Source: a bacterium | Lineage (GTDB): Bacteria > Armatimonadota > HRBIN16 | Assembly: GCA_025054895.1 (NCBI GenBank) | Contig: JANWYZ010000005.1 | Coordinates: 1-32,249 of the forward strand | Direction: 5' to 3' | DNA length: 32,249 bases | Shown here: piece after piece, positions 12,109 through 31,170 of the stretch | How the letters are laid out: each line of letters starts with the position of its first letter | How positions within the stretch are numbered: the stretch's first letter is position 1 | Translations under genes and position numbers: made by a program | The notes under the pieces: model-generated | Database searches by the model: none | Seen by the model: only the letters and a program-made list of their open reading frames with translations | What the model was told of the DNA's origin: nothing

Positions 12109-12245
12109 CGCGTATCACCTCGCTCTCATTATAGCACAGAGCATTTTGTCATGAAGATAGACTCCCTCGCCTTCCGATAGGAATGAAAACCTGTAGTGAA
12201 ACAACAGGAACCCCCTATCAGCACTTTGCCAGCCGTGACACTTCT

Positions 12246-12544
12246 GGAGGGTCGCGCTCCGTCGCGACCACCCAAACAGGACGGCTCGGCGGGAGCCTCG
12301 CCCTCCACTCCTTCTGCCACCCTGAGCGTTAGCGAAGGGTCTCAGATGCTTCGCCTTCGGCTCAGCATGACAACATGGGAGGGTCACACTCCGTCGCAAC
12401 CATGATGGCGGACGCAACAGAGTGCGTCCCTCCAAACGTGGCAGACAATCTTCTGGAGGTTCACGCTCCGTCGTGATCCCAATGGTGAATGCGACAGAGC
12501 GCATCCCTCCAATGTGGGCTAAATGGACGCGACAGAGCGCATCA
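12246..12544. repeat. Mosaic intergenic hairpin repeat, copy 1 (core A-D-B-C module set at 12246-12372, then five further A/E-type hairpins)
   Basis: GGAGGGTCGCGCTCCGTCGCGACC; GGCTC-GGCGG-GAGCC; ACCCTGAGCGTTAGCGAAGGGT; ATGCTTCGCCTTCGGCTCAGCAT; GGACGCA-ACAGAG-TGCGTCC and related hairpins. The same core occurs near 22747-22875 and 30208-30335. Confidence 0.92.
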
Positions 12545-21239: not shown

Positions 21240-22604
21240 TCAGGCGATGATGTTGGGAATGCCGTCCAGCGCAGGCGCGAGGCTCACCGGCGAGGTGTTG
21301 GTGCCACAGCCCATGAAGCGCTGTCCAAGGTCTTCTACCCACTTCTCGCCTTTCTGCTTGCGCAGCTCGTTGATCCTCTCACGGAACTCCCAGTCGGCGT
21401 CTTGCACGACAGTTTTCACGTCGCGCTGTTCCCCAGTGATTTGCATCAGGTGTTTAATCCACCGACTGCCGAAGGTGACGTGCGTGCGCTCGTCCACGAT
21501 GTCGTACTCGTGCTCCAGCGCGGAGAGCGGATCGTTGCGTTTCCAGGCGGCGGCAACCCATGCCCGCTTGGGCTCGAAGCTGCACGCCTCGCCGACCTGC
21601 GTGAGGCTCGCCAGCCGATGCAGCAAGCTGAGGCTCGTCCAGACGGCGTAGTGACCGACCGGTATTGGCACGCTGTAGGGGTCTACGCCGAATGCCTTGA
21701 GGCGCTCGAAGCCCATCATGGTGTGTCGCGCCTCATCCCACATCTGGCGGATGAACTCCATGTAGTACTCGAAGGGCATATCGTACTTGCGCCCATCGTA
21801 CACAATGCTGCCCACGATGTCGATAACCGGCAGTTCGGTAAAATGCGTATAGGCGGTGGGTATCGCCTCGTACTCGGGCCAATCGGGCAGGGTATAGCGG
21901 TCCGCACTGCGGATAGTGAAAGTCTCTTCCAGCGCCATCTCGGCAGGGTATTGCCATTCGGGGTACTCTGGAATGGGCGGCGCATCGGCAGGCGGGCGGA
22001 CGCCAAAGATACCCCCCAGAGCCACCAGGTGTTCCCGAATCTGCTGCTCGAAGGCAGGGTCGCCGGCTCTACCCTGTTCTTGCTTGCGTTTCAGATAATC
22101 TGTGCCCCAGTCGATGTCTCGCTTGAGCGCAGGCAGATGCAACTCCAGCAGCTCTTTGGTGGGTGCGTCGTTCACAGGAAGGGTATATCGGGCATGGAGA
22201 CTGTACGCCTTGTATTGCGCAGGGCGAATCACATGATACAATGCACCGAGAAGCGTCACGTCATCTTTTGCGGTCATCAGGTGTCGCACGAAGTTTTTCC
22301 ACTGCGGAAGCACTTTGCGCTCAGCGTCGCTGACCAGAAAGTCGCGCAGTCGTGCTCGCATGTCTCGAGCACGCAGCATCGCGCTGTGCAGGTGGTGGCT
22401 CAGCTCACATTTTGCCTCCAAATCGGGCAACATAGCGATAGCACCTGCCAGCGTGGTAGCCAATTCAAACTCCAGAGAGAAGTAGTGGTGGAAGATGACC
22501 TGACTCTCTTCCACGCGGAAGTAGGTCTGCCTCTTGCGTCTTCGTACACCAGACACTTTCTGAGCCGCACGGTCGGCTGTGCGATGCACGATAGCCATAA
22601 TCAC
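21240..22604 (-). CDS. Ferritin-like (diiron-type) domain protein of unknown function
   Basis: ExxH motifs CELSHHLH, WDEARHTMMGFERL and VDERTHVTFGSRW in helical context, consistent with the ferritin-like superfamily. Start may be GTG 22604 or ATG 22598. Confidence 0.75.
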   Translation of the reverse strand: MIMAIVHRTADRAAQKVSGVRRRKRQTYFRVEESQVIFHHYFSLEFELATTLAGAIAMLPDLEAKCELSHHLHSAMLRARDMRARLRDFLVSDAERKVLPQWKNFVRHLMTAKDDVTLLGALYHVIRPAQYKAYSLHARYTLPVNDAPTKELLELHLPALKRDIDWGTDYLKRKQEQGRAGDPAFEQQIREHLVALGGIFGVRPPADAPPIPEYPEWQYPAEMALEETFTIRSADRYTLPDWPEYEAIPTAYTHFTELPVIDIVGSIVYDGRKYDMPFEYYMEFIRQMWDEARHTMMGFERLKAFGVDPYSVPIPVGHYAVWTSLSLLHRLASLTQVGEACSFEPKRAWVAAAWKRNDPLSALEHEYDIVDERTHVTFGSRWIKHLMQITGEQRDVKTVVQDADWEFRERINELRKQKGEKWVEDLGQRFMGCGTNTSPVSLAPALDGIPNIIA

Positions 22605-22717
22605 TCTCCCTTTCGCCGGTTTTGTTTAGTTTAGCAAAATGTACACAGGAAAAGCAAGAGAATTGCACACAAAATGCCTTGCGGGGCAAGGCTCCTTTCA
22701 AGCGGCTGGTTTTCAGT

Positions 22718-22944
22718 GGTCGCGACGGAGCGCGACCCTCCAATAATGTCATGCTGAGCGCAAGCGAAGCATCTCTGAGACCCTTCGCTAACGCTCAGGG
22801 TGACAAACGGAGTGGAGGGCGAGGCTCCTGCCGAGCCGTTCGGCTCACAGGGTCGCGACGGAGCGCGACCCTCCAGTGCTGTCATGCTGAGCGCCAGCGA
22901 AGCATCTCGTTTTTTCCTGTCATGCTGAGCCGAAGGCGAAGCAT
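22718..22944. repeat. Mosaic intergenic hairpin repeat, copy 2 (core in opposite orientation at 22747-22875, plus extra A and C modules)
   Basis: GGTCGCG-ACGGAG-CGCGACC at 22718-22737 and 22851-22870; ATGCTGAGCGCAAGCGAAGCAT 22751-22772; ACCCTTCGCTAACGCTCAGGGT 22780-22801; ATGCTGAGCGCCAGCGAAGCAT 22884-22905; ATGCTGAGCCGAAGGCGAAGCAT 22922-22944. Confidence 0.92.
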
Positions 22945-22945
22945 C

Positions 22946-23779
22946 TCACGTAGCGCTCGCTGCGTTGCGCTTTTTCTTCAGGTAAGCCACCTCTGCCTGC
23001 ACCATCTCCACAAAGGATGCACCGACAGGCACGGCAAACTCTGCGTGTACGGAGCAGGGTCCGGTAAATCCCTCCCGTGCCAGCAGGCGAAATACTTCGC
23101 TCCACGCTACGCCTCCCTGTCCTGCAGGCACACACTCCCACTGCAGCTTCTGTTCATCGCCCGATGGCTGCAGGGTTGGCTTGAAATCTTTTAAGCCTAT
23201 CATAGCAAGATATGGCTTCACCATCGCCAGGGCAAACGCGAACGGCTCCCCGTTCACCACCAGATGCCCAACGTCCAGGTACGCTCCCAGCGCGGCGGGG
23301 TCCGAATCGCGCAGCAAGTGCACCAGCGCAGAGGCGTTCAACCCCATGTAACCCATACCGCTGTGAGTATGGTAGACCACCTTCACGCGATAGCGGCGAG
23401 CGAGCCTCTGCCAGCCGTCCAGCGCGCGGCGCACGTTATCCACCTCCTGCCAGTACTGCCCCTTCCCGGGGTCAAACAGGAAGTAGCCCAGTTTGAGCAG
23501 GCGTACGTCAGCGGCGTCCATCGCTCGCAGCAACGGCTCAGCGTATGGCGTATCGGGATACAGCAGGTCGGTTTCGCCTGTCGCGGCAAGTATCGGTTGC
23601 CCCGCCTCAGCGAGGCGTTTGGCGGCGACAGGAAGCGCACGTTCCACGTTTTCCGGGTTCACCGGGTGCCCTTTGCGCACCGCCAGGTCCCATCCCTCTG
23701 TGCCCAGCTCTTGCCCCAAAGCAACCAGCCCATCTATGTCGTACTGCCGGAACATTTTGCTGAAAACCGCAAGGCGCAT
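22946..23779 (-). CDS. Sugar phosphate isomerase/epimerase-like TIM-barrel protein (AP endonuclease 2 family)
   Basis: MRLAVFSKMFRQYDIDGLVALGQELGTEGWDLAVRKGHPV; VVYHTHSGMGYMGLNASALVHLLRDSDPAALGAYLDVGHLVVNGEPF. Track start 23794; Met at 23779 likely. Confidence 0.88.
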   Translation of the reverse strand: MRLAVFSKMFRQYDIDGLVALGQELGTEGWDLAVRKGHPVNPENVERALPVAAKRLAEAGQPILAATGETDLLYPDTPYAEPLLRAMDAADVRLLKLGYFLFDPGKGQYWQEVDNVRRALDGWQRLARRYRVKVVYHTHSGMGYMGLNASALVHLLRDSDPAALGAYLDVGHLVVNGEPFAFALAMVKPYLAMIGLKDFKPTLQPSGDEQKLQWECVPAGQGGVAWSEVFRLLAREGFTGPCSVHAEFAVPVGASFVEMVQAEVAYLKKKRNAASAT

Positions 23780-28132: not shown

Positions 28133-30043
28133 TTAGTCGACAAGCGCTACAGGCGTCCTGCGCGCCACGCCGCATACAGTGTACGCCGCCTCCACAATGT
28201 GCTGCATAGACAGTCCAGCCAGCCTGCGCAGGATGTCCACCGAGCCATGCTCGATGAACTCGTCGGGCACCGCCAGATGCTTTACCTGCACGCCAGTGAC
28301 GCCCTCGTGCGCCAGCAGCTCCAGTACTGCCGAACCGAATCCCCCACATATCGCGTTTTCCTCTACCAGCACAAAGCGGGGGATACGATGCGCAAAGTGC
28401 AGGATGGTTTCTCTATCCAGTGGTTTGGCGAAACGAGCGTTGATTAACGAGGCGCGCACCCCCTCCTTTTGCAGCTGCTTCACTGCTGCAAACGCTGTAG
28501 CCACCATCGAGCCGATGGCGAAAATGGCTACGTCCTCTCCTTCGCGCAACACTTCTGCCTTGCCCAGCTCTATCGGGCTTTCGGGCACGCCCCACTCGAT
28601 AGCAGGCGCCGAACCGCGCGGATAGCGCAAGGCAATCGGACCATTATAGTCCACCGCGAAGCGAAGCATCGCGCGAAGCTCGCCTCCGTCCTTTGGCGCC
28701 ATGATGACCATGTTCGGGATAAGGCGCAGGTAGGAGAGGTCAAACACGCCGTGATGGGTAGCTCCGTCGTCGCCTACCAGCCCCCCGCGGTCCATCGCCA
28801 GTACCACGTGCAGATTCTGTATAGCCACGTCGTGTAAAACCTGGTCAAAAGCGCGCTGCAAGAAGGTAGAGTAGATAGCCGCTACCGGTATCATACCCTC
28901 CGCGGCTAAGCCTGCTGCGAAGGTTACAGCGTGTTGTTCAGCGATGCCCACGTCAAAATAGCGATCGGGGAACCTTTCTTGCAGTTTGGCTAAGCCTGTT
29001 CCGTCGGGCATGGCTGCGGTGATACCCACCACTTTGGGATTCCGCTCGACAATCCGCACCAGCTCATCAGCGAAAACCTGTGTATAGGTTTCGCCGTCTG
29101 CTTTCTTCTCCATTTTGCCATCATGCACGCAGAAGGGGGTTACTCCGTGATATTTACGTGCGTCCGCTTCGGAGAACTCGTACCCCTTACCTTTCACGGT
29201 GATGACATGAATGAGCACCGGTCCCCTGAGCTCGCGGGCATGAGAGAAAACGTCGATCAGCAGGTCGATATCGTGCCCGTCCAGCGGACCAATGTACTCA
29301 AACCCCATCTCTTCGAAGATGGCTCCGGTATTCTCGGGGGCGATGATATGAGTAATACCGTGCTTCAATCCTCTGGCATGCTTGGCAAGCACTCGCGCCC
29401 TGCCCGGCAGTCCCTCCAGCACCTCTTTTGCGCGATGTTCTGCCCGCTGGTACCACGGCTGCGCTCGCAGGCGGGAGAGAAAAGTAGCCAGCGCCCCCAC
29501 GTTCTCGGCGATGGACATCTCGTTATCGTTGAGCACGACGGTCAGGTCGGTTTTCACCTCCGCCGCGTTGTTCAACGCCTCCAGCGCCATGCCAGCAGTC
29601 AAAGCAGCATCGCCTACCACTGCCACCACACGTTCGTCGCTGCCGCGCAGGTCACGCGCTTTGGCGAAACCCAACGCCGCCGAGATGGCTGTACCCGCAT
29701 GTCCGGCTCCCCACACGTCGTACTCACTCTCATCACGACGCAGAAAGCCGCTGATGCCGCCATACTGCCTCAGTGTATTGAACCTCTCCAGTCTACCGGT
29801 GAGCAGTTTGTGCGCATACGCCTGGTGTCCCGTGTCCCAGATAATCTTATCTTTCGGCATGTGCCACACGCTGTGCAGCGCGATGGTCAGCTCGACGGTT
29901 CCCAGGTTAGACGCCAGGTGTCCACCGGTACGCGAGAGGGTATCGATGATGGTCTTTCGTATTTCCGCCGCGAGCTGCCGAAGCTGCTCCCGGCTCAGCG
30001 AGTTCAAGTCGGCGGGCGAACGCACGGTCTCCAGCAGGTGCAC
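28133..30043 (-). CDS. dxs: 1-deoxy-D-xylulose-5-phosphate synthase
   Basis: GGHLASNLGTVELTIALHSVW, VVAVVGDAALTAGMALEALNNA, DVGIAEQHAVTFAAGLAAEGMIPVAAIYSTFLQRAFDQVLHDVAIQ, MDRGGLVGDDGATHHGVFDLSYLR. Confidence 0.98.
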   Translation of the reverse strand: MHLLETVRSPADLNSLSREQLRQLAAEIRKTIIDTLSRTGGHLASNLGTVELTIALHSVWHMPKDKIIWDTGHQAYAHKLLTGRLERFNTLRQYGGISGFLRRDESEYDVWGAGHAGTAISAALGFAKARDLRGSDERVVAVVGDAALTAGMALEALNNAAEVKTDLTVVLNDNEMSIAENVGALATFLSRLRAQPWYQRAEHRAKEVLEGLPGRARVLAKHARGLKHGITHIIAPENTGAIFEEMGFEYIGPLDGHDIDLLIDVFSHARELRGPVLIHVITVKGKGYEFSEADARKYHGVTPFCVHDGKMEKKADGETYTQVFADELVRIVERNPKVVGITAAMPDGTGLAKLQERFPDRYFDVGIAEQHAVTFAAGLAAEGMIPVAAIYSTFLQRAFDQVLHDVAIQNLHVVLAMDRGGLVGDDGATHHGVFDLSYLRLIPNMVIMAPKDGGELRAMLRFAVDYNGPIALRYPRGSAPAIEWGVPESPIELGKAEVLREGEDVAIFAIGSMVATAFAAVKQLQKEGVRASLINARFAKPLDRETILHFAHRIPRFVLVEENAICGGFGSAVLELLAHEGVTGVQVKHLAVPDEFIEHGSVDILRRLAGLSMQHIVEAAYTVCGVARRTPVALVD

Positions 30044-30176
30044 GGGCTATCTCCTTTTTGTGAGAGATTCCTTACGCTAATCAGTTTACCCTACCCGACA
30101 GGAGGTGTCAACGTTCGCCAGCGGTGTCCTGAAAATCGGTAGAGTAGTCCGAACCTGTAGCAAAGGGGATCAAGAG

Positions 30177-30370
30177 ATGCTCCACTACGTTCAGCATGAC
30201 AAGCATTGGAGGGTCGCGCTCCGTCGCGACCATTAGAAACCCGACGGCTCGGCGGGAGCCTCGCCCTCCAGCCCCTGTTGTCACCCTGAGCGTTAGCGAA
30301 GGGTCTCAGATGCTTCGCCTTCGGCTCAGTGTGACGACAGCAGGTTGAGATGCTTCGCTGCGCTCAGCAT
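30177..30370. repeat. Mosaic intergenic hairpin repeat, copy 3 (core at 30208-30335, flanked by extra C modules)
   Basis: ATGCTCCACTACGTTCAGCAT 30177-30197; GGTCGCG-CTCCGT-CGCGACC 30212-30231; GGCTC-GGCGG-GAGCC 30246-30260; ACCCTGAGCGTTAGCGAAGGGT 30283-30304; ATGCTTCGCCTTCGGCTCAGTGT 30310-30332; ATGCTTCGCTGCGCTCAGCAT 30350-30370. Confidence 0.92.
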
Positions 30371-30573
30371 GACAGGGAGACCACTCGGCAGGAGCCTTGC
30401 CCTCCAGTCCGCCTATCATTCTTCGCTCGAGTTCAACATGAGAATTGGGACGGATGCTTGCTAACACTCACTACCAGAACAGGGTACAAGCAACCGCTAT
30501 GCCTGCGCAGAGGGAAACTCCCCTGTCACATTATCGGCGTCAGAAGCAGGTTATCACAGGTAGGATAGTTAGA

Positions 30574-31170
30574 CTACAGTTCCCGTCTCCATTCGAGGGC
30601 AGAGATGAGAGTCGCCTGGTCGGCGTAGTCGAGGTCGCCTCCGATGGGCACGCCGTGCGCCAGCTGCGTGACGCGGATGCCGAGAGGTTTTATCAGTCTA
30701 GAGAGGTACATCGCGGTGGCGTCCCCTTCGATAGTCGGGTTCATCGCAATGATGACCTCCTCAATCGGTTCCGATTGTAACCGCTGGAGCAACTCACGCG
30801 TGCGCAAATCCTCCGCCTTGACGCCGTCCATCGGCGAGATAACCCCTTGTAGCACGTGGTATACACCATGAAACTCCTGCGTGCGTTCAATCGCCATCAA
30901 GTCGCGCACATCCGCTACCACACACAGCAACGAAGCGTCGCGCGAGGGGTTGCGACATATAGGGCAAAGTTCTTCGTCCGTGAAGTTGAAACAACGTTTG
31001 CAGGTGGTGATATGCTGCTTGACATCCACTATCGCTTCTGCCAGCGTACGCGCCTCCTCCTCAGGCAGGCGCAGGATATGAAATGCTATTCGCTGGGCGG
31101 ACTTGGGCCCTACACCGGGCATCTTTTCCAGTTCACGAATCAGCTTTGCCAGAGGCTTAGCGTATTCCAT
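30574..31170 (-). CDS. recR: Recombination mediator protein RecR
   Basis: MEYAKPLAKLIRELEKMPGVGPKSAQRIAFHIL; zinc finger CKRCFNFTDEELCPIC; Toprim VVADVRDLMAIERTQEFHGVYHVLQGVISPMDGV. Confidence 0.98.
   Translation of the reverse strand: MEYAKPLAKLIRELEKMPGVGPKSAQRIAFHILRLPEEEARTLAEAIVDVKQHITTCKRCFNFTDEELCPICRNPSRDASLLCVVADVRDLMAIERTQEFHGVYHVLQGVISPMDGVKAEDLRTRELLQRLQSEPIEEVIIAMNPTIEGDATAMYLSRLIKPLGIRVTQLAHGVPIGGDLDYADQATLISALEWRREL

Follow-up and report, generated by a model that had tools for sequence, protein, structure and literature searches.

The tandem-GA hairpins described here are probably REP-like elements of single-stranded DNA that are recognised by a single-domain GIY-YIG nuclease, the gene for which is linked to such hairpins across phyla. 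The window (the whole stretch of 32,249 nucleotides analysed) carries ten copies in three intergenic gaps, and the genome from which it comes has hundreds more.

A tagged hairpin with opposed GA mismatches

The ten copies listed in a preliminary description of the window were all found with the coordinates, strands and sequences given there (Table 1), as were its two exceptions, GG in place of the second GA at 30177-30197 and a decayed outer stem at 30310-30332. An unbiased scan of the window for the architecture (5-bp outer stem, GA, 2-4 bp inner stem, 3-5 nt loop, GA) recovered eight of the ten as perfect matches and nothing else, whereas 30 first-order Markov sequences of the same composition gave a mean of 0.17. 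Reading the flanks revealed a 5' tag and a 3' tail that had not been part of the description: GTC precedes nine of the ten copies, mostly as TGTC and once as CGTC, with TGCC in front of the copy at 12319, and CT directly follows all ten. Hence the hairpin is a tagged unit, the full form of which is TGTC-[ATNCT-GA-inner stem-GNA/GNNA loop-inner stem-GA-AGNAT]-CT. Three close inverted pairs are present in the window (12319+/12346-, 22751+/22780- and 30283+/30310-). Another, decayed copy (TCATGTTGAACTCGAGCGAAGAATGA) lies on the minus strand at 30410-30440. A 190-residue open frame (22622-23194, plus strand; MLSASEASL..., HAERQRSIS...) passes through the hairpins, and peptides encoded in this way probably fill databases as hypothetical proteins.

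Table 1. Hairpin copies, associated repeats and the host nuclease gene. Positions refer to the window unless a locus is named.
Feature	Position	Strand	Tag	Description
Hairpin copy 1	12319-12340	+	TGCC	ACCCT-GA-GC-GTTA-GC-GA-AGGGT; inverted pair with copy 2, 5 bp apart
Hairpin copy 2	12346-12368	-	TGTC	ATGCT-GA-GCC-GAA-GGC-GA-AGCAT; tail CTG
Hairpin copy 3	22751-22772	+	TGTC	ATGCT-GA-GC-GCAA-GC-GA-AGCAT; tail CTC
Hairpin copy 4	22780-22801	-		ACCCT-GA-GC-GTTA-GC-GA-AGGGT; inverted partner of copy 3
Hairpin copy 5	22884-22905	+	TGTC	ATGCT-GA-GC-GCCA-GC-GA-AGCAT
Hairpin copy 6	22922-22944	+	TGTC	ATGCT-GA-GCC-GAA-GGC-GA-AGCAT
Hairpin copy 7	30177-30197	-	TGTC	ATGCT-GA-AC-GTA-GT-GG-AGCAT; GG replaces second GA
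Hairpin copy 8	30283-30304	+	TGTC	ACCCT-GA-GC-GTTA-GC-GA-AGGGT
Hairpin copy 9	30310-30332	-	CGTC	ACACT-GA-GCC-GAA-GGC-GA-AGCAT; one-sided outer-stem decay
Hairpin copy 10	30350-30370	-	TGTC	ATGCT-GA-GC-GCA-GC-GA-AGCAT
Composite module	30204-30335	+		Two CCTCCA-tailed hairpins and a GA-hairpin pair; matches many places in the host as a block
Related composite module	~12245-12375
Related composite module	~22717-22908
GGTCGCGACGGAGCGCGACCCTCCA family	12245-12269, 22718-22742, 22851-22875, 30207-30231	-, +, +, -		Palindrome ending CCTCCA
CGGCTCGGCRGGAGCCTCGCCCTCCA family	12282-12307, 22813-22838, 30245-30270	+, -, +		Palindrome ending CCTCCA
Variant palindrome of these further families	12410-12434	+
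Host nuclease gene	L050 18742-19035	-		GIY-YIG nuclease of ~98 residues

Distribution in the host genome

Genome-wide counts were obtained by pattern search. The host assembly (3.13 Mb in 468 contigs, 89% complete) contains 347 tagged copies, against none for a reversed control pattern, and congeners have from 2 to more than 200; the untagged hairpin core matches 221 times in the host, against a single control match. TGTC precedes 57 of the 65 architecture matches found in the host by a scan that did not require the tag. Within 268 kb of host sequence the outer stems are ATGCT/AGCAT, ATTCT/AGAAT and ACCCT/AGGGT, with several loops common to ATGCT and ATTCT copies, and only 17 of 94 hairpins fall inside long reading frames, though such frames cover around 86% of this sequence. 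Close neighbours tend to be inverted with respect to one another and separated by short spacers, both in the host itself (42 of 51) and in other genomes (112 of 123).

Part of this abundance reflects the copying of larger units, as a composite module of 130-200 bp is found block-copied at more than 30 places in the host genome. The preliminary description had allowed that its ATGCT and ACCCT forms might be unrelated fixed sequences duplicated as blocks. Within the host this is true in part; it cannot explain the covariation seen across phyla. Covariation confined to the host is partly confounded because the composite modules are copied as blocks, and that among the ten window copies, where these modules are block-copied, was therefore excluded as proof.

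Conservation of the fold across phyla

The tandem-GA hairpin pattern matched at least 116 stretches in records of more than a dozen phyla. Among the matches listed, the record titles include Chloroflexi, Clostridia, Bacteroidales, Acidobacteria, Cyanobacteria and Planctomycetes groups, as well as Nitrospinota, Nitrospirae, Omnitrophota, Poribacteria, Fibrobacter, candidate phyla and others. This pattern fixes 24 bases but constrains neither the loop nor one pair of the outer stem. At that pair, 135 of the 143 matches listed are Watson-Crick, compared to a mean of 54 and a maximum of 74 on permutation. For a second set, 45 distinct 21-nt copies were gathered by their tag, end bases and GA/GA frame, with no other pairing imposed. 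Here 94% of pairs are standard and five pairs have changed on both sides, with 48 doubly changed cells against 12.1 when shuffled (0/500), and the signal was lost when the partner was slid by one column. Since stem covariation is present in both sets, the hairpin fold is under selection across phyla, which bears out the earlier claim that fold rather than sequence is selected. The tag is shared as well: of 65 cross-phylum copies from a scan that required GTC, 55 have TGTC and eight CGTC.

Turnover between related genomes

The gap at 22604-22946, which holds four hairpins, lies between a gene pair that is also found in congeners G006 and G002, where it is free of hairpins and encloses only 40 bp and 72 bp of unmatched sequence respectively. 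Since the window has the cluster and the syntenic site of two congeners does not, it has been gained or lost since these species diverged, whatever the mechanism; when the hairpin-free site was checked for the target-site duplication expected of a MITE, the flanks were too diverged to be read. No hairpin is found at the homologous place beside dxs in the eight congeners having that locus, and beside recR a hairpin is found only in congeners G008 (a pair) and G001 (a decayed copy). In the window dxs and recR are adjacent, with a hairpin cluster between them (30043-30574). The two genes are on separate contigs in the eight congeners that have both, one of which is a genome of seven contigs, so that the junction represents either a rearrangement at the repeats or a misassembly.

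A GIY-YIG nuclease linked to the hairpins

An all-against-all BLAST comparison of the open reading frames near hairpins, at 116 cross-phylum loci, identified a recurring family of GIY-YIG nucleases located at or beside the hairpins in four loci of different phyla; the other recurring groups were ABC transporters and other common enzyme families. The only PF01541 match in the host (C155:18817-19026) lies between hairpins, an arrangement repeated in congener G003 (C34:18559). The G003 locus matches, in contig number and location, that of Bacterium HR16 (G075, C34:18550), which probably places the host in the HRbin16 genus of Armatimonadota. Among ten congeners, the two with the nuclease gene have 221 and 199 hairpins, whilst the eight without it have 2-45, except for G008, an 80% complete genome with 152. 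Across 50 hairpin-bearing genomes reached through the pattern, hairpin counts range from 2 to 442 (controls 0-1), and the nuclease was found in 36; it was not detected at an E value of 1e-10 in the other 14, some of which have more than 150 copies. The failure to detect it there may be explained by incomplete assemblies, as contigs break at the repeats and both nuclease genes and hairpin copies are thereby hidden.

The association was quantified with a fixed rule for a flanking hairpin: GTCA, at least five Watson-Crick pairs, a span of up to 60, then C. Of 29 nuclease genes, 27 have such a hairpin within about 200 bp, including one (L181) flanked according to the rule by a doubtful hairpin, and 19 have them on both sides. 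The same rule gave 1.2 with shuffled flanks, 3 of 29 in distant segments of those loci and 0 of 28 at UvrC or Y1 control loci. In a set from the host's own phylum chosen without regard to hairpins, eight of nine genes are flanked, one of them doubtfully. Strict tandem-GA copies lie beside the gene in 10 of 27 cases, where each genome's own hairpin density predicts 0.37 (P = 2e-13), and in a held-out draw of 99 Planctomycetota genomes seven of the eight intact nuclease genes have flanking hairpins. Hence the nuclease gene is linked to the hairpins across phyla, and their near-constant presence around it suggests that hairpin recognition by the enzyme promotes the persistence or spread of the repeat.

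The catalytic residues Y7, Y17, R27, E64 and N83 of the nuclease are invariant across 22 proteins, as are G19 and H31, and the structure model has a confident GIY-YIG fold (pLDDT 94). Its best solved matches are UPF0213 proteins, followed by the GIY-YIG domains of Slx1 and UvrC. The UPF0213/YhbQ-like proteins (PDB 1zg2, 1ywl), which are the best match in both sequence and fold, share around 23-30% identity with the nuclease and have entries without any association with repeats; an NCBIfam search gave only weak, sub-threshold matches. No paper linking GIY-YIG proteins to REPs was found in the literature searched, and of 110 papers containing one of the hairpin strings, the 40 listed appear from their titles to be primer or oligonucleotide coincidences. 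Nuclease copies within one genome are divergent and so do not point to recent transposition of the gene itself. One copy lying between two hairpins (L122 1806-2083) is apparently frameshifted in a run of A, and several others have in-frame stops; the L122 sequence was read by hand across the frameshift as one of the eight rows of alignment A1 that went into the search of the 50 genomes, and was omitted from alignment A2, the tree and the structure model.

A nuclease motif tracks the hairpin class

The hairpins flanking the nuclease genes fall into three main classes: tandem-GA hairpins with a CT tail; perfect stems of at least eight pairs, mostly with a CCA tail, as in classical CGTC REPs; and ATTGCGA forms. 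The class tracks a motif just after the catalytic glutamate (KGWxRxKK, KxWxRxWK or KxGSRxKK), with agreement in 37 of 39 loci against a permuted mean of 15.4 and maximum of 27, a figure inflated to the extent that related nucleases share a hairpin type by descent. In the nuclease tree, the perfect-stem enzymes cluster and the tandem-GA enzymes are on several branches. The mapping was fixed before the held-out Planctomycetota were searched, and it predicted the hairpin class in seven of seven cases there. The exceptions are two KSWNR[E/A]RK proteins, with ATTGCGA hairpins, and four with tandem-GA hairpins, which have none of the three motifs. Tails follow the same division: 61 of 67 hairpins beside GA-class nucleases have CT, and 22 of 30 in the perfect-stem class have CC. 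At L220, L224, L226, L229, L187, L257, L259 and L261, where the nuclease has a K-x-G-S-R motif, the flanking hairpins belong to a sister class, GTCATTGCGAG...GAAGCAATCT, and CGTC-type perfect stems, mostly CCA-tailed, flank sister nucleases at L178, L180, L260, L262 and L263.

Relationship to known repeat systems

The closest described repeats are the CGTC/TGTC-tagged REPs of Di Nocera et al. (2013; PMC3733652), families 1-4 of which have an uninterrupted stem of 8-9 bp, a loop of 4-5 nt, a CCA-like tail and a tag that can also be CCTC, and for which no dedicated transposase or other enzyme was reported. Both types have an unpaired CGTC/TGTC tag and a stem beginning with A(T), are intergenic and of high copy number, and lack a linked Y1 transposase; inverted dimers predominate over rare head-to-tail pairs in those REPs and in window-type hairpins alike. 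However, in the window hairpins the stem is of 5 bp, the GA/GA mismatches separate it from an inner stem of 2-3 bp, the loop is 3-4 nt long, and the tail is CT rather than CCA. As stem and tail both differ, the window repeats are relatives of the CGTC-tagged REPs rather than members. A further difference is the linked GIY-YIG nuclease, as the description of those REPs includes no enzyme, and the linkage therefore offers them a candidate over many phyla.

Short tagged hairpins in inverted pairs, with a gene bounded by its own hairpins, are also characteristic of GTAG REPs and REPINs with their RAYT, which differ in having a GTAG tag and a Y1 HUH transposase where the present repeats have GTC and a GIY-YIG nuclease. 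Ssn (site-specific single-stranded nuclease), the subject of a 2025 report, is a family of GIY-YIG enzymes reported to cleave single-stranded DNA in Neisseria at repeats termed NTS. By analogy with what is reported for Ssn, the present system probably works in a similar manner: each has a small single-domain GIY-YIG protein with the catalytic residues, hundreds of cognate short repeats (linked here to the gene) and many homologues of different specificity. The tandem-GA class, the spread across phyla, the controls on linkage and the class-predicting motif appear to be additions to Ssn as reported.

We envisage that the repeat would act as a single-stranded hairpin with an unpaired GTC tag and a CT tail, often in inverted pairs; two sheared G-A pairs would make it more rigid, and a GNA or GNNA loop forms its tip. 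Such hairpins would be the recognition sites of the nuclease encoded between copies of the same hairpin, the gene-bearing copy being a putative source element and the hundreds of gene-less copies and pairs non-autonomous sites. The enzyme is predicted to bind and cut the hairpin when its DNA is single-stranded, whether during uptake or at a replication fork, and subsequent repair may then spread or maintain the copies; mobility, like binding and cleavage, is inferred. More tentatively, tandem-GA hairpins and GIY-YIG nucleases could together make up a class of minimal mobile elements, shared across phyla, that would spread by recognition of single-stranded hairpins without a transposase, the motif after the glutamate setting which hairpin architecture is read and the classical CGTC REPs forming one branch.

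Alternative explanations

The loops bear on whether the hairpin functions in DNA or RNA. Their closing G and A are conserved in 33 of 45 and 62 of 76 distinct copies, giving GNA or GNNA loops, but position 3 of the GNNA loop is a purine in only 36 of 143 matches listed; hence the loops are not under selection as GNRA, and the repeat does not fit a GNRA-capped RNA hairpin. The commonest cross-phylum form outside the fixed pattern contains GCGAAGC, and a passage in PMC6582339, citing Hirao et al., credits the DNA hairpin d(GCGAAGC) with extraordinary stability and a sheared G-A pair in its loop. The loops thus match known DNA mini-hairpins and not RNA GNRA loops. Nearest-neighbour DNA rules give the hairpin only modest stability; the standard parameters probably do not credit sheared GA pairs. 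Tandem GA motifs are also known in RNA, and the preliminary description implied that these hairpins act there; once transcribed, they could serve as terminators, stability elements or protein-binding sites. REPs are indeed often transcribed (PMC3733652). Such a role is nonetheless improbable and the RNA reading is unsupported, because, in addition to the loops, a single gap holds copies in both orientations and the enzyme linked to them is a DNA nuclease; there is also no general U-tract 3' of the hairpin, and an Rfam search gave no family at the gathering threshold.

Amongst explanations in DNA, classical REPs mobilised by a Y1/RAYT transposase resemble the present repeats in size, copy number, inverted pairing and intergenic placement, yet are very improbable here given a tag of GTC (TGTC/CGTC) instead of GTAG, the lack of a PF01797 match in the host at E 0.001, and the lack of tagged hairpins in ten Y1 loci of related genomes; a home-made Y1 profile likewise matched none in the 116 cross-phylum loci. 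As a candidate partner, the RAYT/Y1 transposase showed no link in the host, 40 relatives or those loci. It is just as hard to credit that the nuclease gene is a chance neighbour, one of many cargoes or insertion targets of hairpins copied only within larger repeats: large composite modules are block-copied in the host, but 27 of 29 genes are flanked against 1.2 with shuffled flanks and 0 of 28 at control loci, strict copies number 10 of 27 against 0.37, nuclease motif and hairpin type co-vary, and the held-out Planctomycetota already disfavoured it. A possible, if rather unlikely, alternative is that the sites serve the host, with a domesticated nuclease cutting incoming or lagging-strand single-stranded DNA so as to steer transformation or recombination, as is reported for Ssn/NTS in Neisseria, and copies spreading passively by recombination. 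The same data on linkage and specificity would fit, as would the few gene copies relative to hundreds of sites and the position of the dxs-recR junction, absent from congeners, exactly at a hairpin cluster, where repeat-driven rearrangement would put it; the lack of clusters between the same two genes in congeners, in-frame stops in some copies of the gene and a range from 2 to over 200 copies within one genus are more like the turnover of mobile elements. We therefore favour the REP-like element with its linked nuclease as the likely explanation. If this is correct, a very common and usually unannotated repeat becomes a nuclease-target system, and the unusually stable sheared-GA DNA mini-hairpin acquires a natural use. 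As hairpin type is tied to a short protein motif, recognition is testable with small proteins and oligonucleotides. The repeat also has practical consequences, littering annotations with spurious proteins and breaking assemblies.

Other palindromic repeats in the same gaps

Two further palindromic families, GGTCGCGACGGAGCGCGACCCTCCA and CGGCTCGGCRGGAGCCTCGCCCTCCA, occur in the same three gaps of the window, and both end in CCTCCA. Read on the opposite strand, CGGCTCGGCRGGAGCCTCGCCCTCCA is GGC-GA-GGC-TCCT-GCC-GA-GCC, in which GA is again opposed to GA.
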